Assembly (NCBI GenBank): GCA_016280855.1
Contig: JAEEHP010000073.1
Span: 1 to 64,000 of the forward strand
From: Bacteroidaceae bacterium
Lineage (GTDB): Bacteria; Bacteroidota; Bacteroidia; Bacteroidales; Bacteroidaceae
Direction: 5' to 3'
Length of the DNA: 64,000 bases
Below are positions 9,601 through 48,485 of the stretch, piece after piece (within the stretch, counting starts at the first letter, position 1; every line of letters begins with the position of its first letter). A program made the translations under genes and the position numbers. Below the pieces are notes generated by a model. That model did no database searches. It worked only from the letters and a program-made list of their open reading frames with translations, and had not been told where the DNA came from.

Positions 9601-9710
9601 CAGGTGACAAAGTCAGCAGCAGCGAAGCCTTTGACCTCACCGGCCGTCGCGTCAACCACGTGAACCGCGGCTTGTATATCATCAACGGCAAGAAAGTGAT
9701 GGTAAAGTAA
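6696..9710 (+). CDS. Secreted M60-family (enhancin-like) metallopeptidase with C-terminal DLTGRRV motif
   Basis: Zinc motif GPSHEIGHNHQGSINVIGTTESSNN (HExxH plus downstream E); signal peptide; ricin-like/lectin-like N-terminal region. Confidence 0.88.
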   Translation: MKRFLSFLLAFLGIVGSITMSAADVPTGLVRVKSARTSWYLASSAAGTPKTAAKALTKIDQVWILFADGAGYTLRSANTGEYLQATMTSTAAGKATLYIRTSPNATDSKVLFNISAKSDCSGDFLNTNDSHNLFKYSFDAGCDWYLETVENFTMDEVRERILSQNPYAKELEDGAYYRIISTYGLIVTGGSDLTAKNIDADNYYQYWQLKKSNSGWTIMDLVSQKYIQRQTTMSAFFREGTTKVIFDIKPVNDEWDYRWTISAPGDNRGLHDASTQGHNVVLWYTDATASEWHFEKVELSQEEIEAARGGQAAFDDLVKDRTKLQSALNNLFEDKACTTLKPEIQALSDEELEANESFSTLNNDMQAMVLKVKNDTWKQYTLNGSDYTAGYEKFFRVADYHIYSNCDQMGNGSNFTMSNAFGRLSGPTGIVADAGDIIYVYVNGSNKSGTTLQLEAVGTDGVAGNHSSGEVTTLKSGLNLFRFTEQKMIYILYQLTDTKKYLANYPDMTIHIEGGKLNGYWDATRGMTNQDWKLLQQDLLKASPFLNLKTERLVFQMDANLVKQAEPNEMEGLMHVWNTICANEDRYMGVEDFEGRYNNIWNVFSGASSYMHSSTRGTWYTESTIPEIMNYQKMTTGGGALWGPSHEIGHNHQGSINVIGTTESSNNLFSNINTFESGILNSRRYYPHQNFEYIANNTPWLERNIWMTTGMFFQLYLYFHVQHHDDNFLPNLFRKMREKPINKWSGPGNGGPTSYGKDDYLHLAKMICDVAQADLSEYFEAYGMFIPVKMCEVGDYSTYFVTTTQADIDAAKAYMQQYEKKLGNIMFIDDRVLKKEADPNNIFTCTPANDGYKRANSEYPYLMTSPTATAYVGGDYEAFTADAEPVLDDWYKVQNKTITFQGTKKYAGHKFYDPDGNLIWATNKYRDTLPKVVTDLGIENVKVVTANYDMTDTPCTSTKPDDAIDALKAGDKVSSSEAFDLTGRRVNHVNRGLYIINGKKVMVK

Positions 9711-9719
9711 AAAGGAGCA

Positions 9720-9761
9720 GACCCACCCCCCGCCCTCCCTGTGAGGGAGGGAGTAGTTACC
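9720..9761. repeat. GC-rich palindromic element, copy A (intergenic)
   Basis: GACCCACCCCCCGCCCTCCCTGTGAGGGAGGGAGTAGTTACC. Confidence 0.85.
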
Positions 9762-9797
9762 AATCAAGAATAGACCTCTTTAAGATTCAATCATATC

Positions 9798-11441
9798 GTG
9801 AATAAAAAGAAAACTGTTTCACCGAAAGTAACCACTCCCTCCCTACAAGGGAGGGCGGGGGGTGGGTCTGCTTCTTCTCTCGCTATAGGGAGGGCGGGGG
9901 GTGGGTCTTTTTTTCCCTTCATTCTTTTTTTTGTTTTGGCCTGGCTCTGGGCCTCGTGGTGGATGGGCAGCACTTTCCGCATCTCCTACGAGTATTCTTT
10001 TGTAGCCGCCGATAAGACCTTGATGCACTGGCTGTGGCAGCAGTCGTTCGGCGCGCTGTGGATTGTGGGCCGCATTTTGTTGACGCTCTACCGCTGGCCT
10101 CTTCTTGGCGGTCTCGTCGTCGCCTTGCTGCTGACGTCCAGCGCATGGCTCACAGGCTACTGCCTGCGTCTGCGTTCCACTTCCCGTTGGCGTTTCGTCA
10201 GCTATATTCCGGCTCTGCTCTGGATGTGCTGGGTGAGTTGGCAAGGTCTTAACCTTTACTACCAATTCGAACCGGGCCGTGCTCACGGCGTGCTGTTCCT
10301 CGGCGTCTTGATTCTCGCCATCGATGCTTTCATCATCTGGACGTTCAAAGGAAGAAAATCAAAGATGAGAGATGAGAGATTAGAGACGAGAGAGGCTCGC
10401 CCGCATATATCTCTAATCTTTAATCTCCTATCTATCATCTTACTTTTCATTATTCCCTCCCTCATCACGCATTTCCGCTACCCCTACCTTCGTCCGCTCA
10501 CCCAGATGCAGGAACAGATGCTCGTCGAGGATTGGGACGGCATGGCCGCCACGGCACGTGCCAACGCCAAGTTGAGCTATCGTCCGCTGGCCGCTTACTA
10601 TGCCATTTCCCTTGTACAAAATGGTCATCTGGCGGATGCCATGTTTGACATTCGAATGGATTTCGACTCGTTGTACGTCCGCAGCTGGACGGGAAACGGT
10701 GATATCGGGACCAATTATTATCTCGTGGACTGCGACTATCATGCCGGCCTCTTCCGTGCTGCCACACACAAAGCCATGGAACAGCTGACGATGCAGGGGC
10801 CTTCGCTCTATATGCTCAAGCACCTGGCGCGTCTTGCCCTGCTCGACCACGACTGGAATCTCGCGCGCAAGTACCTATTTATTATTAAGCAGGCTCCCTT
10901 CGAAGGCGAATTCATCCGTCGCTACGAAGCGATGCTCGACAAACCGGAGGCGGTGGCTGCCGACCCGATCTTTGCCAAGCTGCGCAAGACGGAACCTGTT
11001 ATGGACAGCTTCGAAGGCATGTACGAAGACCCCACGTTCCTGGGATATACCTGCACGCTGACAGCAGGACGTTCCAAGGAGGCGCTGACGCAGAGCCTCA
11101 TGGCGTGCCTCTACAGCAAACGAATGCCTGACTTCCTGCTTCGTTGCGAGCCCTTGGTCGGCACAACACCTCCCCGTTCCATTGCCGAGGGTCTCATCAC
11201 TCAGAGCTTCAAGAATCCCGAAGTCCTTCAGGCCTTCCCGCAGCTGCAGATGAATGCCAAGATGTACCAATCGTTCCTCCGCACCGTGCAGCCTTACATG
11301 AAGGATCGTCCACGCGGCGGCATCGAACTCTTCGACCAATACAAAGGCTACTACCCCTACTACTACTTCTTCGGCAACCTCAAAGCCACGCGCAAGAGAG
11401 AGGACAAGAAGGAGGAAACGCATAAGGCAGGAGTGAATTAA
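9798..11441 (+). CDS. Multi-TM membrane protein of unknown function (DUF6057-like)
   Basis: About six hydrophobic segments followed by a soluble TPR-like C-terminus; GTG start; N-terminus contains translated repeat peptides VTTPSLQGRAGGGS and AIGRAGGGS. Confidence 0.7.
   Translation: MNKKKTVSPKVTTPSLQGRAGGGSASSLAIGRAGGGSFFPFILFFVLAWLWASWWMGSTFRISYEYSFVAADKTLMHWLWQQSFGALWIVGRILLTLYRWPLLGGLVVALLLTSSAWLTGYCLRLRSTSRWRFVSYIPALLWMCWVSWQGLNLYYQFEPGRAHGVLFLGVLILAIDAFIIWTFKGRKSKMRDERLETREARPHISLIFNLLSIILLFIIPSLITHFRYPYLRPLTQMQEQMLVEDWDGMAATARANAKLSYRPLAAYYAISLVQNGHLADAMFDIRMDFDSLYVRSWTGNGDIGTNYYLVDCDYHAGLFRAATHKAMEQLTMQGPSLYMLKHLARLALLDHDWNLARKYLFIIKQAPFEGEFIRRYEAMLDKPEAVAADPIFAKLRKTEPVMDSFEGMYEDPTFLGYTCTLTAGRSKEALTQSLMACLYSKRMPDFLLRCEPLVGTTPPRSIAEGLITQSFKNPEVLQAFPQLQMNAKMYQSFLRTVQPYMKDRPRGGIELFDQYKGYYPYYYFFGNLKATRKREDKKEETHKAGVN
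9828..9868. repeat. GC-rich palindromic element, copy B (in frame in the membrane protein ORF)
   Basis: GTAACCACTCCCTCCCTACAAGGGAGGGCGGGGGGTGGGTC; near reverse complement of copy A. Confidence 0.88.
9887..9907. repeat. Half copy C of the palindromic element (in frame)
   Basis: AGGGAGGGCGGGGGGTGGGTC, identical to the right arm of copy B. Confidence 0.85.
10352..10440. repeat. Imperfect inverted repeat of the AGATGAGAGATTA family, inside the membrane protein ORF
   Basis: aaatcaaagatgagagatgagagattagagac... pairs with ...atctctaatctttaatctcctatctatcatcttac. Confidence 0.7.
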
Positions 11442-11448
11442 AAAGGGG

Positions 11449-11484
11449 GACCCACCCCGCCCTCCCTGGGAGGGAGCAGATACC
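11449..11484. repeat. GC-rich palindromic element, copy D (intergenic)
   Basis: GACCCACCCCGCCCTCCCTGGGAGGGAGCAGATACC. Confidence 0.82.
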
Positions 11485-11499
11485 AAAAACATTGGATTC

Positions 11500-13191
11500 A
11501 TGACTTATTATAGAAAAGCCCAGGCTTGGCTCCACTCATTCGCAAAGGTGACCACTCCCTCCCTTACAGGGAGGGCGGGGGGTGGGTCTCTTCTTTTACT
11601 GTTGCTGTTAGCAGCTTGCACCTCCCGTCCCACCTCCGTGCCCACGTCTTTCACCGAGGTGACGGATAGCGTGGCCATCTATCCCGACTACCGCGATGTG
11701 ACGGTGCCGCCGAATATCGCACCGCTGAACTTTATGCTCACAGATGCCGGCGCAAAGGAATATGTGGCGAAGATCGGGGACCTCGTCTGCGGAGCCGTCA
11801 AGGACGGCAAGTTCGACATCGACAGCGTGGCATGGCGACAGCTGTTGACCGGTAGCAAAGGCAAAGATGTCACCGTCGATCTCTATGCCCATCGCGAAAA
11901 CGGCTGGGTTCATTTCCCCGCCTACACCTTCCATGTCGCCGAGGAGGACATCGACGGCTTCCTCTCCTACCGTCTCATCGAACCCGGCTACGAGCTGTAC
12001 AGACAGATCGGACTCTACCAGCGCAATCTCGCCACCTTCGACGAGGCCATCATCTACGAGAACAACCGTTCCTTCGACACCGACGACAACCATTGCGTCA
12101 ACTGCCATAACTACCAAGCCTACGACACCGACCGCATGCTCTTCCACGTCCGCGCCGCTCACGGCGGCACCGTCATGGTTCATGGCAGCGAAGCCCATAA
12201 GATCGCCATCAAGCACGACAGCATCCTTGGTGCCGGCGTCTATCCCTCGTGGCACCCCACTCTACCCTTGGTAGCTTTCTCCACCAACAAGACAGGTCAG
12301 GTGTTCCACATGCTTCACAAGGAGAAGATCGAAGTGCTGGACGAAGCCTCCGACCTGCTGCTCTACGATGCCGAGAAAAACGCCGTGCACAACGTGATCC
12401 GCACGACAGACCATCTCGAAACCTTCCCCTGCTGGTCACCCGACGGCCGACGCCTCTACTACTGCTCGGCCCCCATGCCCGAATCCTTGAGGGAGAACTA
12501 CGTATCTGAGCTGATGGCCATGAAATACGACAGCCTCATCTACGATATCTATTCCATGCCCTTCGACCCCGACACCCGCACCTTCGGCACGCCGCGGCTT
12601 GAGGTGGACTGTGCGAGCATGGGCAAGAGTGCCAGCGTACCGCGTGTCAGCCCCGACGGCCAGTACCTGCTCTTCACCCTCGGCGACTACGGACAGTTCC
12701 ATATCTGGCACAAGAGTGCAGATTTGTGGGTAAAGAGATTAGAGAGTAAAGATGAGAGAGAAGAGATGAAAGATAACCAAGCGCAGCCAACTTTCAACTC
12801 TCCGCTCGACCTTGGTCGCTCCACACTTGGAGAACTTTCAACTTTCAACTTTCAACTTTCAACTTTCAACTCCCCAATCTACCCCCTCGTTGCCGCCAAC
12901 GCCGACGACGAGCCCGACAGCTACCACTCGTGGTCCTCGAACGGGCGATGGATTGTCTTTGCGAGCCGCCGCGACGACGGCAATTTCTCACGCGCTTACA
13001 TCGCCTATTTCGACCGCAACGGACAGGCACACAAAGCCTTCCTTTTGCCGCAACGCGATCCCGAGCATAACCTGCTCTTGCTCAAGAGCTACAACGTGCC
13101 CGAACTGACACGTTCAGCCGTCAAGGTGTCGAGAGCGACGCTCGATCATGTCGTCCTGCACACCGAAGCGGAAGTTGCGACTTACGAGTAA
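11500..13191 (+). CDS. Lipoprotein with CXXCH (c-type heme) motif and TolB/PD40-like beta-propeller repeats
   Basis: Lipobox LLLLLLLAAC; NHCVNCHNYQAY; propeller strands 'PCWSPDGRRLYYCSA', 'PRVSPDGQYLLFTLG', 'SWSSNGRWIVFASRR'. Confidence 0.75.
   Translation: MTYYRKAQAWLHSFAKVTTPSLTGRAGGGSLLLLLLLAACTSRPTSVPTSFTEVTDSVAIYPDYRDVTVPPNIAPLNFMLTDAGAKEYVAKIGDLVCGAVKDGKFDIDSVAWRQLLTGSKGKDVTVDLYAHRENGWVHFPAYTFHVAEEDIDGFLSYRLIEPGYELYRQIGLYQRNLATFDEAIIYENNRSFDTDDNHCVNCHNYQAYDTDRMLFHVRAAHGGTVMVHGSEAHKIAIKHDSILGAGVYPSWHPTLPLVAFSTNKTGQVFHMLHKEKIEVLDEASDLLLYDAEKNAVHNVIRTTDHLETFPCWSPDGRRLYYCSAPMPESLRENYVSELMAMKYDSLIYDIYSMPFDPDTRTFGTPRLEVDCASMGKSASVPRVSPDGQYLLFTLGDYGQFHIWHKSADLWVKRLESKDEREEMKDNQAQPTFNSPLDLGRSTLGELSTFNFQLSTFNSPIYPLVAANADDEPDSYHSWSSNGRWIVFASRRDDGNFSRAYIAYFDRNGQAHKAFLLPQRDPEHNLLLLKSYNVPELTRSAVKVSRATLDHVVLHTEAEVATYE
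11548..11588. repeat. GC-rich palindromic element, copy E (in frame in the signal peptide region)
   Basis: GTGACCACTCCCTCCCTTACAGGGAGGGCGGGGGGTGGGTC; encodes VTTPSLTGRAGGGS. Confidence 0.88.
12836..12870. repeat. Heptamer tandem repeat (TTTCAAC)x5 inside the beta-propeller ORF
   Basis: Five perfect TTTCAAC units, translated in the ORF as ...[11 protein letters not shown]... Confidence 0.92.
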
Positions 13192-23442: not shown

Positions 23443-26400
23443 ATGAAAACAAAACATCAACATTTCTCGCCTCCTGCCAATGCAGGATTTGAGCGATGGT
23501 TGCGCCATGGCAGGCATCCGATGCCCCGGCGCACGTCAAATGTGTGGACCAGACTGGTTCTGGTATTTCTCATGCTCTTCTCGGCCTTGCCTGTGTTGCG
23601 GGCTCAATACATCACGGACCTCAAAGTTATGGGCAGTAGCTCTGAATCAGGTATAACTAGCCTGAAAGATGCGGCCAAGAATCAGAAATGGACCGTCGTT
23701 GAGAAGGACCTGAATGACAATGCTGGCGGCTGGTATATTTACCTGGCTTATAAGACGACTGATAATGCAAATCCGGAGACAGAGTACATCACGGACATCG
23801 TCGCCAGGACAACTAATGTGAACAGCTTCACGTTGAACGGCAGATCATATTATAAGGTGACTGCTGAAGGAAGTAATTTCAACGGTGACCTGAACAAAGA
23901 AGCCGGCGGCGCTTATATCTACCTTTATTACACGAAAGGGCGCGCAAACTTGGCTGGCCATTATGATTCGAAGCGTGTACTCGAGAAGATTGAATCATCT
24001 AACAACGACGGCAGCCAATCGAGTGGTACATCGAACTACGGCCCCGTGTGTTGGTATGATGCCTACAGCAACGCCCCGTGCGATGTCAACAAGGGTTGCG
24101 GCAAAGGTTCCGACTACATCTACCTCAGAATGTATTTTAAGGAGCAGACGTTGTCCATCAAGAAAGATCCGAAGGCTATAAGCGGCCTCGTATATAATGG
24201 AAGCGCACAGAAGTTGGTAACTGCCCCTGCTAGTGGCAACTACGGAACAATGTATTACAAGGTGGGTAACGGTAGTTATAAAACAGCGTTACCGGAGGCT
24301 ACTGATGTACAGAAAGAGTACACGGTGACATATTACCTCAAAGCCGGTTCTTATGCCAATAATAGTCCCGCAAAATCGTTGAAAGTGAGAATTGCTCCGC
24401 CTACAGTGAAATCTGCGGGCCTCGACGGTGACTTTGACCAGGAGAAGAGGCAGGTGGTATTGACCTGGAGCGCAGCTGACGGTTTGTATTACTACAAGAA
24501 TTACAGATGGTATGTCTATCGCGGCAACACGAAGCTAGGCGAAGTGCATCCGGACTCTACACGCACGTGGATCGACACACAATATACGGTGGATAATCCT
24601 AAAGAGACGTATCACGTGTATTATGTGTCCAAGGACTGGGAACAAGAAGAGCTTAAAGATGACTGTAAGGCTTCTGTGGATGTGAGTACAGTGCGTACGG
24701 TGCCTGTGAATAACCTAAAAGCTGTAACTGATGATACCAAACTGACGCTGACGTGGTCATCAGATGGTTACCCAGCTGGTTGGGGCCACAAGTTCAAGAT
24801 CTATGTGGACAAGGAGACAGAGCCAATCATAACCATCACTCCTACGGGTTCTGATCATACATCGTTCACATGGGAGCACCGCTACACGGATGCACATGCC
24901 GACCGTAAGAACGGCACTACGGGGTCAGGCAAAAGCACCGTCTATTGGACCGAGGAGCAGGGCTTAGGTGCCTGCAGCCCCCACAGCTATCGTGTAGAGG
25001 GCGTCATCGAGAACAAGACGTTGAATTCGGCTTCTCAGGAAAACAAGGCCATCGGTGCAGCCACAAGTTTCTATTCCTTCGAAGCCTCGAAGGGCGCTTA
25101 TGCTGGTTCGGTGAAACTCTCGTGGCACATCGACAATCAAGGTTCAACTGCGTCTAAAACATACATTATTGCTCGCCGTACGACAGGGAAAGAGAGTGAG
25201 GCGTGGACAACGCTGGATCGCATCAACAGCACCGACGAGTACCTGCTTTATACCGACGAGACCGCTTTGCCAGGCATTTATTACGACTATAAAGTGACAG
25301 CTGTTGACAAATGTGGCAACGGAGAGCAAATTTATACGACCGCAACAGACATCGGTTTCTCACAGGCCACCGGCACAGTGAGCGGACGTGTAACATATGG
25401 CGCTTCCGGCAGCGCTGTAGATAGTGTTGACGTGATTATGACCAAAGCCAGTGTGTCGGGCGATGATGCGAAACAATATCAATCGTTGCGCATTAATGGT
25501 TCCAACGCTGTCGCTGTATGGAAGTATCCCAATGCCAACTACCCCAAGGAGATGTTCCAGACCGCGGACTTCTCCATGCAGATGTGGATCAACCTCGATG
25601 AGTTTCCCGAGGCATGGCTGATACGCTTGAGGGGAACTAACGTCGGAGCCATAGGTATATCGAAAAACAGCTACCCAATGTTCTGCTGTGGAACAAGTCC
25701 TCAATATAATTTTACGACACTTAGCTTGAAGAAGGGCGAGTATAATCACTTGACCATGACCCGAAAGGGGAATGTGGTGACCTTCTACCTCGTGGAACCC
25801 AATCCCGACGGACGTCCCATTGTACATAAGGAAACAAAGACCATCCACGCCATTTCGGATCTAACGGTCAACCCCGTGTTCCAGATGGGTTACTTCAATG
25901 GCTATATCGATGAGTTCCGCATTTGGACGAAGTGCCTGAGCGAGGAAGAGATCGTGGGTAACTTCGACCGCATGCTTGTGGGCAACGAGAAGGATTTGTT
26001 GTGCTATTGGACTTTCGACGAGGGCTTGAATAACAAGTTCTTCGACTACTCGCGCGAGGGTACGGTGTATAACGGTCACCACGGCACAGCGACAAACACA
26101 AAATCATCAGAGACGGTTCCCTCCGCCCTGGGTTTGAAAGCGACGACGGATACCGACGGTAACTACATCATAGCGGGCGTCCCATTCAGCGGCGAGGGTA
26201 CAAACTACAACATCCAGCCGATGAAGAACGCCCACGACTTCTCACCTCAAAAGCAAAGCCGTTACATCAGCGCCTCTTCGCTCGTTCAGAACAGCGTAGA
26301 TTTCACCGACGTGAGTTCGTTCGAAGTGTCGGGTCAGGTGCTGTATGAGGGCACGACGATACCTGTTGACAGTGTGATGATCTATGTGGACGGTCGCGCC

Positions 26401-29400
26401 GTCTCCCGCAACGGCGAGGCTGTGATGACTGATGAACAAGGTAAGTTCATCGTCGATGTGCCCATTGGCAATCACTATCTCACAGCCGTCAGGGACGGCC
26501 ACACGTTTGTTGAAGATGGTCGCATTCCTGCAGACCCCTCCGGCTTGAACTCTGAAACGATGCCTTTCACGAGCCCTCTGTCGGGTCTGAAGTTCACTGA
26601 CAATACGTTGGTGCCCATTGTGGGGCGCGTGGTCGGCGGTGCCATCGAGGGTGCAAAGCCGTTGGGCTTCGGTCTGAGCGAGAATAATATCGGTAAGGCC
26701 ATCATTACGTTGGAAATACCAGACCTTACTTATATGATTAACGCGCACGAGGAGTTTGCCGATAACGCTCACTTGGTGAGCAATGGTTACTTCCCGACAA
26801 AGACGAACACCCCGCTGCCACATCCTGAAGGTATGCCGAACGCAGGCGATGCTTATCGTACGGGCGGCGATTATGAGAATGATGCGAAGCAGATCGTGAT
26901 CACGACCGACGCTGTGACGGGTGAGTTCGGTGCACTGGTGCCCCCGTTGGACTACAAGGTGGTGTCGGTGCAGATGGTGAATACCACTGGTCAGAGTGCG
27001 TATGTGTTTAAAGCCGATGAGTTGCCGCGCATCAATGCAAGTGATGCCACGAACGTGATGCAGGACAGTACGTTGACAGACAAGGGCGAAAAGATCTTCT
27101 TCGACTATGTGGCCAAGTTCGTCCAGGCGAAGCACACAGAGCCGGTTCTGTCCGTGACGCAGGGCAATCTGCCGGAGGGCGTGTATGGTAAGCCAACAGC
27201 CTCCTATGTGAATCCGCTCACGCAGAAGGAAACGGAGGTGGCTGTTTATACGCTGAACAACAACCAGGTGACGTATAATTTCGGTTATCCCATTTTCGGC
27301 GAGTTAGGCACATACACGTTCAACCTTGAAGGTTATGAGATGTACACCAACTACGATAAAGACGCCACAGATCCCAAGCGCGAATCGAAGGTGCCGCTGA
27401 GAGATGTTGTCGTCACCATCAGCAATGCGTTGAGCTCGTCTCAGGAGGTGCAGGGCGTCGATGACCCAGAACATGCAGGTGAGGTGCTGAATTTGAAGCC
27501 CAACCAGCTACAGCTCGACTCTCTGGGTAAGGCTAAGTATCAGTGGAAGGCTGGTTTCCCCAACATCCAGAGTCCCTATACGCGAACATTAAATATGACA
27601 TACAACAACGGTGCTGGTGAGTACAAATGGAAGGGCACGACAGGCGATGGTATGGCGGGCATCATCTTTGGCGACCTGCCCTCTGGCACGAACTTCACTA
27701 CAGATGGTCCGTCGGACGTGGAGATGGTTCTTCACGACCCGTATGGTGACTCTTCGTTCGCTACCTGGGAGACAGGTAAGGTGACCGTAGAATCTACGGA
27801 TACAGTGGCCACACAGACACAGGACAACAGCTTATTGTCAACCCTTCATCTTGGTCCTGATTTCTCAATGGGTTCTGGCGGCTGGGGTTTCATATTCGAT
27901 ACCGAACTTGATACTACCATCGATCCTGCGCTTGGCTTCGACCGTGTGATGCAACACGACACCATCACTACAAATACCACAACGATCGAGGTTACACGCG
28001 CCATCAGCACAAGTAGCGATCCGGAATTTGTAGGTGCTGATGCAGACCTATATATAGGAAAGAGCAGTAACCTGTTGTTCGGTAAGGCCCGAGGCGTCGG
28101 CCTAAAGGAAAATGACCAGGGCGTACCGGAAGTGGCGGTGAGCGACGTGATCACCATAGGTAAGAAGTTCAAGACGAACTTCGTTTACACACAGTATCAA
28201 ATCGAAAATGTGATCGTTCCCAACCTGAAAACTATTCGAAACGGTTTGCTGGTTTGGGTCGAGGACGTGGATTCGACGCTGAATGATACATCGGAGACCA
28301 TGTACGTAACGGCACTGCATGAGGACGATCCGAACTTCGGTGAGCCCGGAACCTACAGAGCCATTGCTCCGAAAACCGGTGGAAAGATTGGTGTAGATAT
28401 GGTTGGCTTCTACAACGACCAAATCCTGAACTGGTACGCCGCCATCGAGCAGAACGAGAAGTATAAGGTTGATCTGTTCAAGGACTCCAGTGCTGAAAAG
28501 AAAAATTTATCGTTTGGCGGCGGTTCCGAGAACACGGAAACATCAACAACGTCTAAGACCAGGTCAAAGACTACAACCTATACCCACAACTGGACGGTCA
28601 TTGCATCGTTGGATGTAGGCTTCACTTATAATGGAGTAGGCTTTAATCTTGAGACTGCCAACAACACGACGTTTGAAGATGCTGAAAGCGAAACCAACGA
28701 GACCACCACAACTGCGACCTTCAGCTACACGCTGGCAGATAGCGGTGCCGATGACTCGTTCACGATGGATATTTACCCGGCTTCTGGCAACCACGGTCCT
28801 GTATTCCGCACCTTGGGCGGCCAGTCGTCATGCCCCTATGAGGGTCAGGTGTTGACAAAGTACTACAAAGCTGGTAAGGAAGAGCTGTCGGCTGCCACAT
28901 GGCAGATTGAAGATCCCGAGTTGACGTGCGACAATCGTCTGCTGACGGGTATCCCGACGGGCGGCAAGGCTCAGTTCGAGCTGAAGCTGAAGAACAACTC
29001 AATTACGAAGACCGACTGCTACTTCAACCTTGTTCCCGTTGACGGTGCTAATCCTAAGGGTGCATTGCTGAGCCTGCCCACAGGTCCTATCGGCAACGGT
29101 CGTTCAGTATTTGTGCCCGCTGGTGAGGCAGTGACAATGATCCTGACCCTCGAGCAGGGCAACCTCGCCACGACGAAGTACGACGACATCCAGCTGTCGC
29201 TGCAGAGTGCATGTCAGGACGATATCTGCAGCACGATCAGCCTGAGTGCTGAATTCGTGCCTGCCAGCACACCAGTGATCATGGCTATCGACAAGTCCGT
29301 GATGAACATCGGCAACGTCAGCGATGGTCTGAATATCCGTGTGACGGGCTTCAACCGTTACTTCGCCGGCTTGGAGCGTGTTGATCTGCAATACATGGCT

Positions 29401-32400
29401 CCCGGCGACCACTCATGGAGCTTACTCGAAAGTTATATCCCTGGCGACAGCGTGCGCGCAGATGCCAGCCAGAAGCTGCTGCCCGAGAACGGCGTGATCG
29501 AGCTGCCGTTGGATATGACCGCATCGAAGTGGAAAGACGGAACCTATCAGTTCCGCGCCCGTAGCTCAGCTAAGTTTGCCGGCAGTCCTGTGACTTCCGA
29601 GAGCGAGGTGCTGACATTAGTGAAAGACGTACAGCGCCCGCAGCTGTTCGGCGCAGCTAACCCGAACGACGGTATCCTGAATGCCGGCGACGAGATCAGC
29701 CTGACGTTCAACGAAGATATCCAGAAGGCTATGCTGACGGATAACAACATCCAGGTGAGCGGCGTCTTGAACGGTGCCGAGGTGCAACACGACGTAGCCC
29801 TGTCGGCACAGAACACCGAGCGTGCGGCCTACACCGAGGCTAGCTACAACTTGAGCGAGAAAGACTTCTCGGTGGATATGTGGGTACGCGCGTCCTCGAC
29901 CGGCGACATCTTTATTCACGGCACAGGTGACAATAAGTTCAAGATGAGCGTAGATGACACAGACCACATCGTGGCAACCATCGGCGACACAACTGTTGTA
30001 TCCGATGAAGCCATCGATAAGGATGAGTGGACATTCCTGACGTTCTCATACAAATACAAGCAAGGTGACAGCCGTCTGAGCGCTCGCGCCGTGACAGCCA
30101 ACGGCAGGAGGTTCCTTTTCGCCAACAGGAAGGTTAAGGACTACACTGGCACAGGCGCTATTACGCTGGGTCAGAATTTCTCGGGTGCTATCCATGAACT
30201 GGTGCTCTGGGACAAGTCCCGCGACATGAACGAAGCTCAGGCTGAGATGTACTACACGAAGAAGCCTTCGACGCCTCAGCTTATCGGTTACTGGAAGATG
30301 GACGAAGGCAATGGCAGTGAAATACGTGACTACGCTCGCAACCGCCATATGACAGTGCCGGGCAGCACGTGGTACCTGAACAACGACAACAAGGCTGTGA
30401 GCCTCGACGGTACGAAGACCGTGAAGCTCGACATCTCGGCTTGCAGCGTGGCAGACACTGAAGACTACGCTGTGGAGATGTGGTTCAAGGGCGCCAAGGC
30501 CGACCAGGCCGCTGCCAGCACGCTGTTCTCCGCTGCCAACACGTCAGTGAGTATCGGCTTCAATGCCGCCGGCGCCCTGACGATGAATGCTGGTGGAACA
30601 GAGGTTGAGCTGACTGAAAAGGAATACCTCGACAACGCATGGCACCACTTGGCCCTGAACGTGCTTCGCAACGGTAACGCCACGGTTTATGTCGATGGCA
30701 CACCCGTGAAGACCCTGTCGGCAACGACCGTTCCTACCCTCGAAGGTGCTTGGCTGTACCTCGGTTCGAAGGGCGGCAGTGATGCCTTCTTCAAGGGTGC
30801 TGTTGACGAGGTGCGCTTATGGAATGCTTCGATGACCGGTGACCTGCTCACCAGCCAGCGCACGCAACGCCTCAACGGCGACGAGAGCGGTCTGGTAGCT
30901 TACTACTCCTTCGAGGCACTGACGCGCAACCCGAACAACGGTATCATCTCTTCTGTCGGCAATGCAAAAGACTTGTGCACCGGCACGAAGGAAGCGACAA
31001 TGAACACGGGCGAACTGCCGTTCGTCGATGAGGCTCCTGCCTTGAAGGTGAAGCCCGACGCTACGAACGTACAATTCAACTATGTGGCCAACGAGCGCAG
31101 CATCATCATCACGCTGAACGAGACACCTGCCCGCTTAGAGGGCTCTACCCTGCAGTTCACCGTGCGTTCCGTACAGGATATGAACGGCAACGAATCGGCA
31201 GCTGTGAAGTGGACGGCTTACGTTCGCCAGAACAACCTGCTCTGGAAGGGAGATACGGAAGTGAGCGTTGAGCAGCAAGTGGGCGAGAGCACCACGTTCG
31301 ATGTCGCCTTCGTCAACGAGAGCGGCAATTCCGAGAACTGGACGCTGACGAACCTGCCCACATGGCTCACCGCCAGCGCTACCAGCGGCACGCTGAAGGC
31401 TCAGCTGTCGAAGGCCATCACCCTGACAGTCGATCCGAGCACGCCTGTAGGCAAGTATGAGCAAACCATCTACCTGACCGGCAACGACAACATCAGCGAA
31501 CCGCTGACCATCTCGCTGAAGGTGAAGGCCGAGGAGCCCGACTGGGCAGTCAATCCCGCCGACTACGAGCTGTCGATGAACGTCATCGGACAGCTGCAAA
31601 TCTTAGGCGTCCAGAGCCAGAACGAAGACGACATCGTCGCTGCCTTCATCGGTAACGAGTGCCACGGCGTAGCACATCCCGTATATATGCCTCGTTACGA
31701 CGGCTACTTCGTCACCATGGATATCTATGGCGACGGCATAGATGCCAACACTCCGTTGGAGTTCAAGGTCTTCGAGGCTGCTACGGGTAACATCTATCCC
31801 GTTGTGCGTGTCACCGCAGGCACAGAGACCAGTATCAATTTCGTGAGCAACGACTTCAAGGGTACGTATAGAAATCCTGTCATCCTGAACGCCACCGACG
31901 AAATCGAACAGAGCTTCGACCTCGTGAAGGGTTGGAACTGGATGTCGCTCGGCGTACGTCCCGACAACATGGTTACATCTGTCGTCTTTGCCAACGCGGC
32001 AGGACTTGTCAGGGAAGTGAAGAGCCTGTCGGACAATGATGAGTTTGACGGCGCAGTTTGGCTCGATTTGGAGATGAACAACTCCGAGATGTATATGGTT
32101 AAGGCTACCGCCGATTTGGCACTTCCTGTGACAGGTCATATCGTGGATGCTACGCAGACCCCCATCACCCTCGTGAAGGGTTGGAACTGGATCGGTTTCC
32201 ACCGCCTTCAGACGATGAGCTTGGGCGATGCCCTCGCCGACTGGGTAGCAGGAGACGAAGACATCATCAAGGGTCAGAAGGGCGTTGCCTACTACGACGG
32301 CTACGAATGGGTAGGCTCGCTGAAGACACTCGTTCCCGGTCAGGGTTATATGGTGAAGAATATTCACTTGGCCGATGATGCATCGTTAACATTCAACTAT

Positions 32401-32913
32401 CCGACTTCTTCCATGAAGGGTTCCGGTGCCTCACACATCAGGGCATATGAGCCAGAGTTGACTTTCGATGCCATTGATTGCCACAGCTATCCCACGAATA
32501 TGGTTGTCTGCGCACAGGTCGTCAAGGACGGGCTGCCCATCGAGGGCATTGAGGTCGGCATCTTCGCCGACGACGAATGCCGTCAGGCTGACGTGACCGA
32601 CGAACGCGGCATGATCTATGTTACCGTTCCCGGCGATGAGCCCGTGAAGCTCACCTTCCGCGTCGCCGACGGCGTGGACATCTACGACGCCATCGAAAGT
32701 GCGACCTACGAGACTGACGCCGTACTCGGCACGCCAAAGGCTCCGCTCATGATCAACCTCGACAATGCTACAGGCATCAAGAGCATCAGCGATTCGATGA
32801 CAGAATCCATGTATGACGTCGGCGGACGTAAGGTGGCCAACAGCAGAGTGGCTAACCGCACGTTGTCAAGAGGCGTTTACATCGTCAACGGACAGAAAGT
32901 CGTTGTTAAATAA
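23443..32913 (+). CDS. Giant (3156 aa) secreted surface protein with several LamG/ConA-like domains and C-terminal DVGGRKV...GVYIVNGQKVVVK motif
   Basis: LamG-like segments DFSMQMWINL, DFSVDMWVRA, DYAVEMWFKG; carboxypeptidase-regulatory-like VSGRVTYG; paralogous to the next ORF. Confidence 0.85.
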   Translation: MKTKHQHFSPPANAGFERWLRHGRHPMPRRTSNVWTRLVLVFLMLFSALPVLRAQYITDLKVMGSSSESGITSLKDAAKNQKWTVVEKDLNDNAGGWYIYLAYKTTDNANPETEYITDIVARTTNVNSFTLNGRSYYKVTAEGSNFNGDLNKEAGGAYIYLYYTKGRANLAGHYDSKRVLEKIESSNNDGSQSSGTSNYGPVCWYDAYSNAPCDVNKGCGKGSDYIYLRMYFKEQTLSIKKDPKAISGLVYNGSAQKLVTAPASGNYGTMYYKVGNGSYKTALPEATDVQKEYTVTYYLKAGSYANNSPAKSLKVRIAPPTVKSAGLDGDFDQEKRQVVLTWSAADGLYYYKNYRWYVYRGNTKLGEVHPDSTRTWIDTQYTVDNPKETYHVYYVSKDWEQEELKDDCKASVDVSTVRTVPVNNLKAVTDDTKLTLTWSSDGYPAGWGHKFKIYVDKETEPIITITPTGSDHTSFTWEHRYTDAHADRKNGTTGSGKSTVYWTEEQGLGACSPHSYRVEGVIENKTLNSASQENKAIGAATSFYSFEASKGAYAGSVKLSWHIDNQGSTASKTYIIARRTTGKESEAWTTLDRINSTDEYLLYTDETALPGIYYDYKVTAVDKCGNGEQIYTTATDIGFSQATGTVSGRVTYGASGSAVDSVDVIMTKASVSGDDAKQYQSLRINGSNAVAVWKYPNANYPKEMFQTADFSMQMWINLDEFPEAWLIRLRGTNVGAIGISKNSYPMFCCGTSPQYNFTTLSLKKGEYNHLTMTRKGNVVTFYLVEPNPDGRPIVHKETKTIHAISDLTVNPVFQMGYFNGYIDEFRIWTKCLSEEEIVGNFDRMLVGNEKDLLCYWTFDEGLNNKFFDYSREGTVYNGHHGTATNTKSSETVPSALGLKATTDTDGNYIIAGVPFSGEGTNYNIQPMKNAHDFSPQKQSRYISASSLVQNSVDFTDVSSFEVSGQVLYEGTTIPVDSVMIYVDGRAVSRNGEAVMTDEQGKFIVDVPIGNHYLTAVRDGHTFVEDGRIPADPSGLNSETMPFTSPLSGLKFTDNTLVPIVGRVVGGAIEGAKPLGFGLSENNIGKAIITLEIPDLTYMINAHEEFADNAHLVSNGYFPTKTNTPLPHPEGMPNAGDAYRTGGDYENDAKQIVITTDAVTGEFGALVPPLDYKVVSVQMVNTTGQSAYVFKADELPRINASDATNVMQDSTLTDKGEKIFFDYVAKFVQAKHTEPVLSVTQGNLPEGVYGKPTASYVNPLTQKETEVAVYTLNNNQVTYNFGYPIFGELGTYTFNLEGYEMYTNYDKDATDPKRESKVPLRDVVVTISNALSSSQEVQGVDDPEHAGEVLNLKPNQLQLDSLGKAKYQWKAGFPNIQSPYTRTLNMTYNNGAGEYKWKGTTGDGMAGIIFGDLPSGTNFTTDGPSDVEMVLHDPYGDSSFATWETGKVTVESTDTVATQTQDNSLLSTLHLGPDFSMGSGGWGFIFDTELDTTIDPALGFDRVMQHDTITTNTTTIEVTRAISTSSDPEFVGADADLYIGKSSNLLFGKARGVGLKENDQGVPEVAVSDVITIGKKFKTNFVYTQYQIENVIVPNLKTIRNGLLVWVEDVDSTLNDTSETMYVTALHEDDPNFGEPGTYRAIAPKTGGKIGVDMVGFYNDQILNWYAAIEQNEKYKVDLFKDSSAEKKNLSFGGGSENTETSTTSKTRSKTTTYTHNWTVIASLDVGFTYNGVGFNLETANNTTFEDAESETNETTTTATFSYTLADSGADDSFTMDIYPASGNHGPVFRTLGGQSSCPYEGQVLTKYYKAGKEELSAATWQIEDPELTCDNRLLTGIPTGGKAQFELKLKNNSITKTDCYFNLVPVDGANPKGALLSLPTGPIGNGRSVFVPAGEAVTMILTLEQGNLATTKYDDIQLSLQSACQDDICSTISLSAEFVPASTPVIMAIDKSVMNIGNVSDGLNIRVTGFNRYFAGLERVDLQYMAPGDHSWSLLESYIPGDSVRADASQKLLPENGVIELPLDMTASKWKDGTYQFRARSSAKFAGSPVTSESEVLTLVKDVQRPQLFGAANPNDGILNAGDEISLTFNEDIQKAMLTDNNIQVSGVLNGAEVQHDVALSAQNTERAAYTEASYNLSEKDFSVDMWVRASSTGDIFIHGTGDNKFKMSVDDTDHIVATIGDTTVVSDEAIDKDEWTFLTFSYKYKQGDSRLSARAVTANGRRFLFANRKVKDYTGTGAITLGQNFSGAIHELVLWDKSRDMNEAQAEMYYTKKPSTPQLIGYWKMDEGNGSEIRDYARNRHMTVPGSTWYLNNDNKAVSLDGTKTVKLDISACSVADTEDYAVEMWFKGAKADQAAASTLFSAANTSVSIGFNAAGALTMNAGGTEVELTEKEYLDNAWHHLALNVLRNGNATVYVDGTPVKTLSATTVPTLEGAWLYLGSKGGSDAFFKGAVDEVRLWNASMTGDLLTSQRTQRLNGDESGLVAYYSFEALTRNPNNGIISSVGNAKDLCTGTKEATMNTGELPFVDEAPALKVKPDATNVQFNYVANERSIIITLNETPARLEGSTLQFTVRSVQDMNGNESAAVKWTAYVRQNNLLWKGDTEVSVEQQVGESTTFDVAFVNESGNSENWTLTNLPTWLTASATSGTLKAQLSKAITLTVDPSTPVGKYEQTIYLTGNDNISEPLTISLKVKAEEPDWAVNPADYELSMNVIGQLQILGVQSQNEDDIVAAFIGNECHGVAHPVYMPRYDGYFVTMDIYGDGIDANTPLEFKVFEAATGNIYPVVRVTAGTETSINFVSNDFKGTYRNPVILNATDEIEQSFDLVKGWNWMSLGVRPDNMVTSVVFANAAGLVREVKSLSDNDEFDGAVWLDLEMNNSEMYMVKATADLALPVTGHIVDATQTPITLVKGWNWIGFHRLQTMSLGDALADWVAGDEDIIKGQKGVAYYDGYEWVGSLKTLVPGQGYMVKNIHLADDASLTFNYPTSSMKGSGASHIRAYEPELTFDAIDCHSYPTNMVVCAQVVKDGLPIEGIEVGIFADDECRQADVTDERGMIYVTVPGDEPVKLTFRVADGVDIYDAIESATYETDAVLGTPKAPLMINLDNATGIKSISDSMTESMYDVGGRKVANSRVANRTLSRGVYIVNGQKVVVK

Positions 32914-32918
32914 AAAAG

Positions 32919-32992
32919 ACTCACCCCCAACCCTGCCTCTCCCCCAACCCCTCCCCCGAAAGGGAGGGGAGAAGGGGAGAGAAGAAGGGGGC
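32919..32992. repeat. GC-rich palindromic element, copy F, between the two giant genes
   Basis: CTCTCCCCcaaCCCCTCCCccgaaaGGGAGGGGagaaGGGGAGAG hairpin core. Confidence 0.8.
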
Positions 32993-33007
32993 TAAAAATT
33001 TAATATT

Positions 33008-36000
33008 ATGAAAAGGAAAGACTATTTATCAAAACAATGGTGGCGGGTCACACTACTATTGCTGGCCTGCCTCATCGGAGGCAGCAGCCCGACGTGGGCC
33101 ATCGCATTCGTCAATGAGGGCTACACAGCCATCACCAGTACACCTGCCAATGACAACGGTACTTACAAACAACCGTACTTCGAAATGAAGATGGTGTACT
33201 ACGACAATACGAATGACGCCCTATGTTACTGGCAAAGTGCGCCGGAGATCTATGTGGACGGTGTACTGGTGTGCTATGGCACCGAAATAGGCAATTTCGG
33301 AGCTAACGGTGGAAAAAAAGCATCCGAAGCAGCTAACAGTGGAGTCCTCTGGTGGGGCAATATTCACGACAAGACGGTGGACGGTGTGACCTATCGTGTG
33401 CGCTTCCACAGTCCTTTCGTCTCGCAGACTTGGTCTGGCCACCAGAAATATTCGTGCTATATGCGCGTTTATATCAGCAGTATGGAGTCGAACTCGTATC
33501 ATGAGGTACGCTTCAAGGGTCAATGGATGTATGCAGGGGGTCTCACTAACGTCAACGCTGCTTATGCGTTCAGGGCTCCCACGATGTGGGCCGACAACGT
33601 TGCACTGACAGCAGACATGACCGACTACCAGACACTGTCTCTGAGCGGTAACTTGAACTACAACTACGGTCCAACGTTAGTGGGCTTGAAGCCCGGCGGT
33701 GAAGGTAACGCACCGACGGTGGCGTCGACCTACAGACCGCACCGATATGTGGAGACATCGAATCTCGTTTCAGCGAAGCGATATGAATGGCACACGAGCA
33801 CGTTCAGTGGAGTGTCGTATGCATATACCCGCCAGAACTTGAGCCATAAGAACGGTTCGATAGCTGCAGTGGAATACTCGCTCCCTGTGGAGGACAACGG
33901 TTTCACCACCAATTTCTACAAATGGTACGAAGTGGGCGTCCCTGGATTCGCACTGCCTATAAACCTTGAAGTGAAAAGCAAGGATCCGTGGACAAAGAAG
34001 ATCGAGCTGACATGGGATGTTGACGTCGACTGGATGGTCGTAAACAACAATCGGCGTAGCAAAGAGGGTAAATGGGTGATTTATCGCGACAATAATGAGA
34101 TAGGCTCCAAGGCCTACGACAAGCCCACGATGACTTTCACAGATACGTCTGTGCCCGATTACGAAGTGAACCACACCTACAAGGTTGCTTTCGTGCCCAA
34201 CAATATACCGGCAGGACATAAGAACGACGATCTGGCAACCTCCCTGGGAACCTCGCTCGAACGTAACTGGTCTTTGGAGGCTCTTCCGGCGACGCTTGTT
34301 GATGACGATGCCCATGTGAAAGTGTCGTGGAAACACAGTGGTATAGAAGATGCAACGGGGTCTAACACCTACGCGCTGACGATCCACCGTTCTGATGACG
34401 ACGGTCAGACATTTAGCGGAGCTATTTACTCTTCAACGATCTCAAGCAAAGGTACGCTGGAAGGCTCGTATATTGACAACAGTGATGACCTTCGCTCGAA
34501 CCATACCTACGTTTATCAGATAAGGATCTCCTTGCTTGATAAGGAATACACGGCGGATACGCCACCCATCACGCTCGGAGGCTCACAGCTCAGGGAGTTC
34601 ACTGCATCCCGCGGCACATACAGCAATGTGGTCAAGCTCGCATGGACAGTGAAGCAGGTGGGCGGCGAAGCGACCTCGTTTGTGGTGGCACGCCGTCCGT
34701 TAGGCACTGAAGGTAACGACAAGGGGTGGCAGACTATCCACACGATCTCGGGCACGAACACATCATACAGCTACGAGGACAATACGGCTTTACTGGGCAC
34801 TTACAACGAATACCGGGTGGCCATTGTAGATAAGACTAACTCTTCGAAAATCTTTGGATCAATGACCACGGACGGTTTCGCCTACTCCACCGGTGTCGTC
34901 AGCGGACGCATCAAGTACGGCACCGGCACCGCCGTGGAGGGCGTGAAGGTTAAGCTGAAACAACAGAGCGAGAGCGGCGATTTGCTGACTTCGGGCATGC
35001 GCTCGCTGAAACTTACCGGAAGCCGTGCCGGTTTGATTCTTAAGACCGACCCCGAGACCATCCAACAGCTCTTCGGCGGCGACTTCTCGGTGCAGATGTA
35101 TGTGAATCCGAGTTTGGCCGAGATGGACGGCAGCAAGAGCAGCTACAACCTGCTGCACGCCATCCACATCTTCTACATGTCGCTCGCCAAGAACGGCAAC
35201 GCCTATAAACTCGGAGCATGGGTTGATGGTACTACGGAAACTAGCAACCTCACCATTCCCGCCGACAAGTGGAGCCAAGTGACCTTGGTGCACAACCACG
35301 ACGCGAAGACCACCATGCTCTATGTCGCCGCCGCCGACACGCTGCAGCGCGCGCTCGTCCGCAGCGGCAAGCAAATCAACTGGGCCAAGAACGGGAATAA
35401 CGACCCCATGGCGGTGGACTCCCTCGACATCTTCAGCATAGCCGGATTGGGTCAGAACGGCAACAACAACTTCCGCGGCTACGTCGATGAGTTCCGCTTC
35501 TTCACCAAGGCGCTGAGCGAGAAGGAGATCCTGCGCAACTATAACCACCCGTTGGCGGGCAACGAGGATGGTCTTGCTATCTACTATCCCTTCGACGAGG
35601 GTCTGACGAAGCAGACGATCGCCTACGACTACTCGAAGACAAACGGTGTGGCTAACGGACACCATGCACAAACCTACATTCCAGCCTATTCAGAAGCCGA
35701 GAAGCTCCCGAGCGAAGAGCAGCTGTGCATGATGAACTACACCGACTCTTTGGGCAACTACACCATTCGGGGTATACACTTCGAGGGCGAGGGAACGCCT
35801 TACAGCATCATTCCCGAATACAACATCCACGAGTTCTCGCCGTCGGCACAGTCGCGCTTCATCAGCGCATCGTCGCTGGTACACAGTGGTGTCGATTTTG
35901 AGGATGTCAGCTCGTTCCCCGTGAGCGGACGGGTGTTCTATGCAGGCACAGACTATCCTGTGGAAGGGGTCAACTTCTACGTCGATGGTACTATCTGTGC

Positions 36001-39000
36001 CAAGAACGGCGAGCTGATTGCCACCAACGCCGAAGGCGAGTTCACCATCAGCGTACCCATCGGCAATCACTTCATCGAGGCGAGAAAGAACGGCCACGTG
36101 TTTGTGAACAACGGCCGCTTCCCCGAAGACCCGAACAACACGGGTACGTTGCATAATTTTGACGGCGAACTCTACTTGGAATACCGCGACACGACGTTGG
36201 TGAACTTCACCGGGCGTGTGGTCGGTGGCGATATTGAGGGCGAAAAGCCCATCGGCTTCGCCAGAAGCACGAACAATATCGGCAGAAGCACCTTGGTGCT
36301 GCTACCGCCCAATAGCGACAAGTACCGCCTCAATGTTGTCAGGGAGGATAATGGGGGTAGCTTCAGCTACGTGAGCAATCCGGATACTGTGCCCATTCCT
36401 TCTGCCAGAAACATCATCGAGAGTACCTCGTGGCGCGGCGCGGGTGCAGACAACAGCAACAAGCTGTTCATCCGGACTGATGCCGCAACGGGCGAGTTCT
36501 CCGCTATGGTGCCTCCGCTATCCTACACCATTCAGAGCATAAAAGTTGATGCCACCGGAAAGGATCTCATCGAGAATTCCATCACTCTTGACCTCACTCA
36601 GCCTCTGTTGGAGAACAAGGACTCTCTTGAAAGCGACGACGGCAGCTTCGACTATTACACTTACCACACGATGCTCCGCCAGACCTACCACAGCACACCT
36701 ACCTTCACCGTGAAGCAGGACAAGAGGGACGATGGCGCTTATGGTATCAACGAATACACCATTAATGATATCAACGGCGAGCTGAAGGTGGAGGATATCA
36801 GCACGGGCGGCAATTACAAGTTTGGCTATCCTGTGTTCGTAAGTATGGATTCCTATATCTTCGACCTTGAGGGCTTTGAGAAGTATGAGAACAAGGATTC
36901 AGGCGTGACTGTCGAGTCGAAGGTTCCTCTTGCCGGCACCGTAGTGACCATTGCCAATGCCCTGTCCTCAGAGCAAGCGGTCTATGGTGAAAACAACGAA
37001 GCGGGAGCCGAACCGGGAAGCACCGATGGTGTGAAAGACTTCCAACTGGAGCTGGACGATGAAGGTAAGGCAAAATATGTGTGGAAGGCCGGTCTGCCCA
37101 ACATTTCCGACCCCTACACCCGTACCATCAACATCTATTACACGATAGGCAATGTAGACTACGACTGGACGGGCAATCCTTTGAATGGGATTGTACTGGG
37201 AACCTTGCCAACGGGCAACAACTTCGTCACAGCCGGTACCGACCAGCTCGACATGATTCTCCGTGATCCTCCCGGCTCCAACTCCAGCGCAGAGTGGTCG
37301 AAGGGTAGCGTTTGGTCGAGATCGGAATCGAAAGGCGGAACCTGGTCGAGTGAGACTACAGCTAAGACCACCACGCATTTCGGCACGGATACTCAAGTCG
37401 CAATAGGTGCAATTGCCCTCTACAAAATGGAAGATCTTGAGGTTAAAGCAGACTTGGATGTTGGTGTCAAGGTGACCTGTGAGGGTGAGGATGCAAAAAC
37501 TTGGAGTCGTGAAGTGACGACAACCAAGACGATCAGCACAAGCGATTCACCCGACTATGTGGGTGCTGACGGCGACATCTTCATCGGCTCGTCCACCAAC
37601 CTCATCTTCGGTATGGCACGTGGCCTTGATATCGTTCGCGATGAGAATGATCCCACCAATGCCATTCTCCATCTCGATGACGTCCTCACTGCTGGCCTGC
37701 AGTTTAATACACAATTCAGCTACACGCAGAGTTACATCGTGAACACGCTCATTCCCAATTTCAAAAAGTTGCGCAATGCGATGATTACCCCTGCTGTAAC
37801 GACAGCCGTCTATGACAGCTATGTGAATGACTCGAATCGTCCTGTCTATCTGTCCACACTGACGAGCGAAGACGAACGCTTCGGATCCAGCAATCATGAC
37901 AAAAAAGTTTGGAAAAATTTAGCAACTGCAGCCCCGTCTGAAATGGGTCCATCATATAAGATGATTGTTCCGCAAGGCTCTAACGAAGCCTACCAGGACA
38001 GTGTGGAATGGTACAACAGTCAGATCAAGGCTTGGGAAACCTATTTGGCATTTAACGAAATGCAAAAGCTTCAGGTATACCAATATCGCACTGAAGACAC
38101 CAAGAACTATTCTTTCGATGCCGGTACGACGGTAAACGAATCTGTCGAGACGAATACATCCAACGGTTCACACTATGATGTCACAACCACCGCTGTAGCC
38201 ATTGTCGGAACAAGGTTTGGCACCTCCTTCAATAAGTTAGGCGTAGAGTGGGAGATTGGCACAGAGACCGGCGGCGGCGAACATCATGAAATTGAGGAGT
38301 CAAATTCTGAGACCACTTCGTTCAGCTTTACCTTAGCCGATGACGGAGTGGACGACGCCCTTTCGGTTGATGTCTATGATGGTTGGGGGTTCAGCCCCAT
38401 CTTCCGCACACGAGGTGGTCAGACCAGCGCACCCTACGAGGGCGAGGTGGTCACTAAGTACTACGAACCGGGCAGCATCATCATGGAAGGAACGATGCAG
38501 ATTGAGGTTCCGCATATTGCAGTGGACAATCCCGTCGTAAACAGTGTTCCCTCTGGTTCTGCCGCAGAATATACGCTACAGTTGTCCAACGCTTCTGAGA
38601 TTGGTGCCGACGTCGTTTATAGGCTCTTCGTCCTCGACGAGACGAACCCCAACGGCGCTCAACTCACCATCGACGGCAAGGTGCTTACCGAGTCGGGACG
38701 CCTGATTAAGGTGCCTGCCAACCAGACACTGACGAAGACGCTGCAACTGCGCCAGACCAACACCAGCGTACTTGACTACGAGAAACTGACCCTCGTGTTC
38801 GCTTCCGACTCGGAACCCGACGAGATCTTCAGCGCGGTAGATATCACGGCACACTTCATTCCGTCGTCATCACCCGTAACGCTTGCACTCAGCAATACAA
38901 TAATGAACACGCAGACGGGCGACGATCTGACGCTGACGTTCAAAGACTTCGACCGCAACTACCGAGGTCTGAAAGCCTTCCGCCTGCAGTACAAGAAACA

Positions 39001-43884: not shown

Positions 43885-48485
<4,601 letters not shown>

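Follow-up and report, generated by a model that had tools for sequence, protein, structure and literature searches.

The window analysed here is a stretch of 64,000 nt from G000, a 3.43-Mb MAG (287 contigs, about 85% complete) of an uncultured Bacteroidales. Judged from its relatives, the host lineage is rumen-associated. At the locus under study, the gene of a peptidase M60 family protein is followed by that of a DUF6057 membrane protein, whose GTG start lies between two arms, A and B, of an inverted repeat (Table 1). The initial annotation had described a pair of near reverse complements, of roughly 42 nt each, bracketing this start codon. A repeat search of the window recovered the pair at that position with slightly longer arms, of 49 nt each and 90% complementary, separated by a spacer of 67 nt, and added a half copy, B2, absent from the earlier description. 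This inverted pair is far above chance expectation: a pattern made of a tail plus half a palindrome occurs 6 times in the window; shuffled sequence gives an expectation of 0.11, and none of the shuffles reached 6.

Table 1. Genes and repeat arms at the three start-straddling pairs of the window.
Feature	Coordinates	Strand	Remarks
Upstream gene, peptidase M60 family protein, 1004 aa	6696..9710	+	ends just before arm A
Arm A, REP-like	9712..9760	-	adjoins M60 peptidase stop (9708-9710); tail GACCCACC facing upstream gene; inner end ..TTACCAATCAAGAATAG
AT-rich interior, leader and GTG start 9798	9761..9827	+	read as native
Host gene, DUF6057 membrane protein, 547 aa	9798..11441	+	GTG start
Arm B, inverted copy of A	9828..9876	+	in frame, N-terminus of membrane protein, read VTTPSLQGRAGGGS
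B2, partial extra copy (tail half)	9887..9908	+	in frame, read GRAGGGS
Second pair, arm A (diverged)	11449..11482	-	behind DUF6057 gene stop
Second pair, arm B	11546..11588	+	between ATG 11500 and lipoprotein signal of next gene (KVTTPSLTGRAGGGS-LLLLLLLAAC)
Third pair, arm B	46160..46203	-	minus-strand gene, ATG 46260; directly after predicted signal peptide (15 residues, not shown)
Third pair, degenerate arm A (CACCCTGTTATGGAGGGAGTGGTTACCTTCAAGAA)	46285..46318	-	upstream of ATG 46260; approximate ends, read by eye

GTG 9798 is a plausible start. The orthologous locus L233, from another species (an uncultured Prevotellaceae MAG), has a GTG at the same start position, and the orthologues of genomes G010 and G018 begin at the same place with similarly basic N-termini (MKSKKTKRQ and MSKNKKRSP, respectively). 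The leader and the GTG are read as native on these grounds. Beyond the short native N-terminus the frame stays open across arm B, with TTPSLQGRAGGGS as the predicted product, and this open frame together with homology suggests that the arm is translated. Peptides encoded by arm B, e.g. TPSLTGRAGGGS, would then be expected near N-termini. Further along, the same gene has a linker with an unrelated in-frame inverted repeat at 10355-10441, whose 32-nt arms are 78% complementary. The matching linker of L233 holds a REP-like pair instead (RPTPNPSRQGGE..SPLPNGRGWGW), and other DUF6057 orthologues have short linkers at this site.

Besides the pair at GTG 9798, start-straddling pairs bracket ATG 11500 and ATG 46260 in the window; neither these nor the dispersal of the repeat across the genome had been included in the initial annotation. 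The palindrome core is present at 100 places in G000 at up to 2 mismatches (0 for a reversed-pattern control), and there are 65 tailed half-elements. The arms approximate to RGACCCACCCCCCGCCCTCCCTGTGAGGGAGGGAGYRG; in many of them, GGTTACCTTTCAAGAATAG or a GAATG-type stretch comes next. Copies were studied in 43 stretches around them, so that the pair counts are lower bounds. Neighbouring arms mostly form pairs with outward tails (26, a few of them weak arm matches), with 1 inward pair and 4 in the same orientation. Resting on ORF calls, at least 20 pairs straddle a gene start and at least some 14 are intragenic. The A/B pair is a member of this dispersed REP-like family and not a switch peculiar to the DUF6057 gene.

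In the start-straddling layout, arm A adjoins or overlaps the end of the upstream ORF, the start codon lies in the AT-rich interior that follows, and the conserved domain is immediately preceded by arm B, which is in frame. The hosts include NadD, Gmk, Cmk, IspH, Pth, and dCMP deaminase, which we take to be these proteins from recognised sequence motifs rather than from a family search. Arm A either follows the upstream stop or supplies it, as the REP does at Cmk and Gmk. Consecutive junctions are bracketed at L046, L051, and L069, as they are in the window. Compact units lie in frame inside ORFs, uvrA among them; they measure 116 nt at 6 of the 8 sites compared and read DPPPALPVREGA..APSLTGRAGGGS. 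The interiors of the long pairs, unlike those of the compact units, vary from locus to locus.

It had also been proposed that in the mRNA the two arms could pair and leave the initiation region in a loop, or that each could fold alone. Both structures are physically plausible according to the folding predictions. The RNA of positions 9700-9885 (186 nt) folds as a single long A:B stem, with the initiation region in the enclosed loop, at a predicted -106.6 kcal/mol, compared with -51.9 +/- 4.6 for shuffles (z -11.9), and the arms alone reach -15.2 and -23.2 kcal/mol. A dedicated RNA switch, in which the choice between A:B pairing and separate hairpins would control initiation at GTG 9798, could draw on this very stable predicted stem around the start, on the folding of each arm, and on the presence of both arms in L233. 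We nevertheless regard it as very unlikely, and the locus-specific part of the proposal is not supported: the same outward-tailed pair recurs at the at least 20 unrelated gene starts and inside ORFs, and most orthologues examined are without it. Locus-specific covariation is weak at best; L233, alone among the orthologous loci in having both arms, showed no clear compensatory changes. Its B1 carries changes unmatched in A, and the predicted A:B1 pairing weakens to -53 kcal/mol; A with the extra copy B2 gives -79, so that B2 could replace B1 there. Within-pair complementarity exceeds that of re-paired arms by 0.05 (p 0.009 overall; 0.05 in the long-spacer class), and such a slight excess would also be expected from duplication or conversion of units. 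Since pairing follows from the build of the family, it is by itself no evidence of regulation. A search of Rfam returned no relevant family, with sub-threshold matches to microRNA models only, and a scan for sigma-70 promoters, from which those of Bacteroidales differ, returned none.

In Bacteroidales, inverted repeats flanking promoter regions are known as an arrangement for switches, and arms A and B are long enough for recombination. Flipping of the leader and start region by recombination between A and B is nonetheless extremely improbable, as the leader has the identical orientation in G000 and L233, and variable spacers and sites inside ORFs fit an invertible switch poorly.

Orthologous sites in relatives are found both occupied and unoccupied. 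Where the window gene has arm B, its orthologues in G010 and G018 carry other palindromes, and no palindrome was visible by eye in the remaining orthologues examined. L233 has A, the GTG start, and B, each arm with an extra copy; the arrangement thus predates that split, and an assembly artefact is unlikely. Empty sites occur in relatives at NadD, Gmk, a MATE-like protein, and genes of L045, L057, L040, and L053. Relatives carry REP-like peptides at the sites in UvrA, ABC-F, a glycosyltransferase-like protein, Pth, a MacA-like protein, and the L043 dehydrogenase. Pth (MFSFLKKLFSK), the MacA-like protein, and the L043 gene share with relatives the residues that separate the start codon from arm B, and their bracketed starts are therefore native. 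The pair of L066 brackets a native helix (LLDALLDL).

Such native starts make it less likely that every interior is borne by the element. According to this idea, a mobile unit carrying a leader and a start codon would insert between genes, so that the preceding ORF is terminated and the following one begins anew. The junctions at dCMP deaminase and cmk can be read either way and keep it alive, since in some close relatives the genes overlap there and have no leader (with an ATGA overlap at Cmk in G019). For dCMP deaminase, the joined G000 flanks MESK-PLDLRYLR resemble the native N-terminus of those relatives, MESKNRPLDMRYLR, but the N-terminus DNKQQK is also like the native MDKKQQD of other relatives. 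At L065 (2053-2122 and 4353-4422), two neighbouring, different genes have the REP, the leader, and the first codons (MRYIMKTYKS) in common, which would fit a cassette and suggests local copying of the REP-leader-start stretch. Against a mobile cassette stand the interiors, which vary by locus as those of compact units do not, and the conserved bracketed starts of Pth, the MacA-like protein, the L043 gene, and the window gene; on balance we consider it unlikely. As a separate observation, in G019 (L145) a REP-like palindrome lies between an upstream peptidase gene and dCMP deaminase within a single open frame of 934 codons, possibly a gene fusion.

The types of core and tail are specific to species. 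Exact tails of the forms GGTGGGTC and GGAGAGTC number 28 and 1 in G000, 1 and 62 in G064, 1 and 42 in G015, 4 and 36 in G019, and 0 and 36 in G067, respectively. The sites are in part common to species, e.g. those in Pth and ABC-F, which are occupied in both G000 and G064. Given shared sites with species-specific tails, the repeats of one genome seem to change in step at these sites, which suggests concerted evolution, presumably through conversion or repeated replacement. The spread and homogenisation of REP populations could be studied in a natural setting at shared sites whose repeats are species-specific.

As for the proteins that might mobilise the family, the PF01797 (Y1_Tnp) profile has no match in G000 and misses long RAYT-like proteins. 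A profile made from three of these detected several, with at least 4 in G000 and others across the genus. They are HUH/Y1 proteins with PDHxH and YxxDNP motifs. Members of this family (L127-L130 of G000 and others) have 350-550 aa, a low-complexity insert, and a conserved C-terminal domain; PF01797 and the NCBIfam model NF047646 (REP_Tyr_transpos) miss them or match them partly, NF047646 below its cut-off. Across 61 genomes, the number of cores correlates with the number of RAYT-like matches (rho 0.46, p 0.0002), a coefficient that ignores shared descent, completeness, and split hits. Among the RAYT-like genes fetched, none is directly flanked by the window REP, the genome being fragmented and incomplete, and in G000 the repeat closest to such a gene is a related palindrome, at a distance of about 500 nt. 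The link between RAYT-like proteins and the window REP family is suggestive only; if they are the agents, they would represent a little-described branch of single-strand DNA transposases.

The reading that we prefer, at a probability of about 0.78, is that A and B together make up one dimer, as its two arms, of a selfish, tolerated REP-like family, with the native leader and GTG between them still used for initiation. Arm A would have settled just behind the M60 peptidase stop and arm B in the variable N-terminus of the DUF6057 protein, as part of which it would be translated. Copies may have been moved or overwritten by single-strand HUH/Y1 (RAYT-like) activity, and would persist where they do least harm, namely behind stops, in N-terminal tails, and in linkers. 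A start-straddling dimer may be tolerated because the RNA stem would leave the start codon in a loop, and any effect on expression would be a by-product, not a dedicated function. The mobility of the family is inferred from patterns in the sequences.

A more far-reaching version, in which the dimers would be genome-wide translation-start modules, is rather unlikely. Such modules would prefer native housekeeping starts, supply an upstream stop and an N-terminal tag, be kept for long at the same junctions, and be homogenised per species; many genes would then use one interchangeable RNA structure at initiation. Under the preferred reading of a tolerated selfish dimer as well, this repeat family of uncultured Bacteroidales has copies in the start regions and linkers of core genes, where it is apparently translated, which is seldom so for REPs. 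Start-codon calls and protein alignments in these Bacteroidales are affected by it.

Among known element classes, REP/REPIN sequences (REPINs being REP doublets), with their RAYT/TnpA-REP transposases, share several features with the G000 family: high-copy, GC-rich, dispersed palindromes, inverted dimers, and REP-supplied stops. G000 also encodes the RAYT-like proteins, whose matches to NF047646 stay below its cut-off. Intragenic REP copies, including some in uvrA, and REP-supplied stop codons are known (PMC3733652). REP/REPIN sequences have a fixed GTAG/CGTC tag at their foot, whereas the G000 arms begin with GACCCACC and end with GGGAGYRG, GTAG appearing in some copies by variation and not as a fixed tag. 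In addition, REP/REPIN sequences are mainly extragenic, and start-straddling dimers and in-frame copies are exceptions among them but common in the G000 family, with its apparently translated arm B at starts and its approximately 14 pairs inside ORFs. The RAYT gene of REP/REPIN systems is flanked by its cognate REP, unlike the RAYT-like genes fetched here. The palindromic elements of Rickettsia (RPEs) likewise sit in frame within numerous unrelated protein genes and are translated (PMC10969869). They belong to another phylum and, compared by description, apparently have another sequence; the available part of that account describes no start-straddling dimers. MITEs resemble the family as short non-coding units with inverted ends, some of them in frame in ORFs. 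They differ in that the G000 units are without target-site duplication (none seen by eye at the flanks of eight compact units), have ends that are themselves hairpins, and come with no identified parent IS. Thus, intragenic REPs, REP-supplied stops, and in-frame RPEs are already known. The literature searched described neither the recurrent start-straddling dimer layout in Bacteroidales nor species-specific types at shared sites.

Elsewhere in the window (23443-42553), two giant ORFs of 3163 and 3186 codons between stops lie next to each other, with a diverged, GC-rich palindrome (32918-32980) in between.
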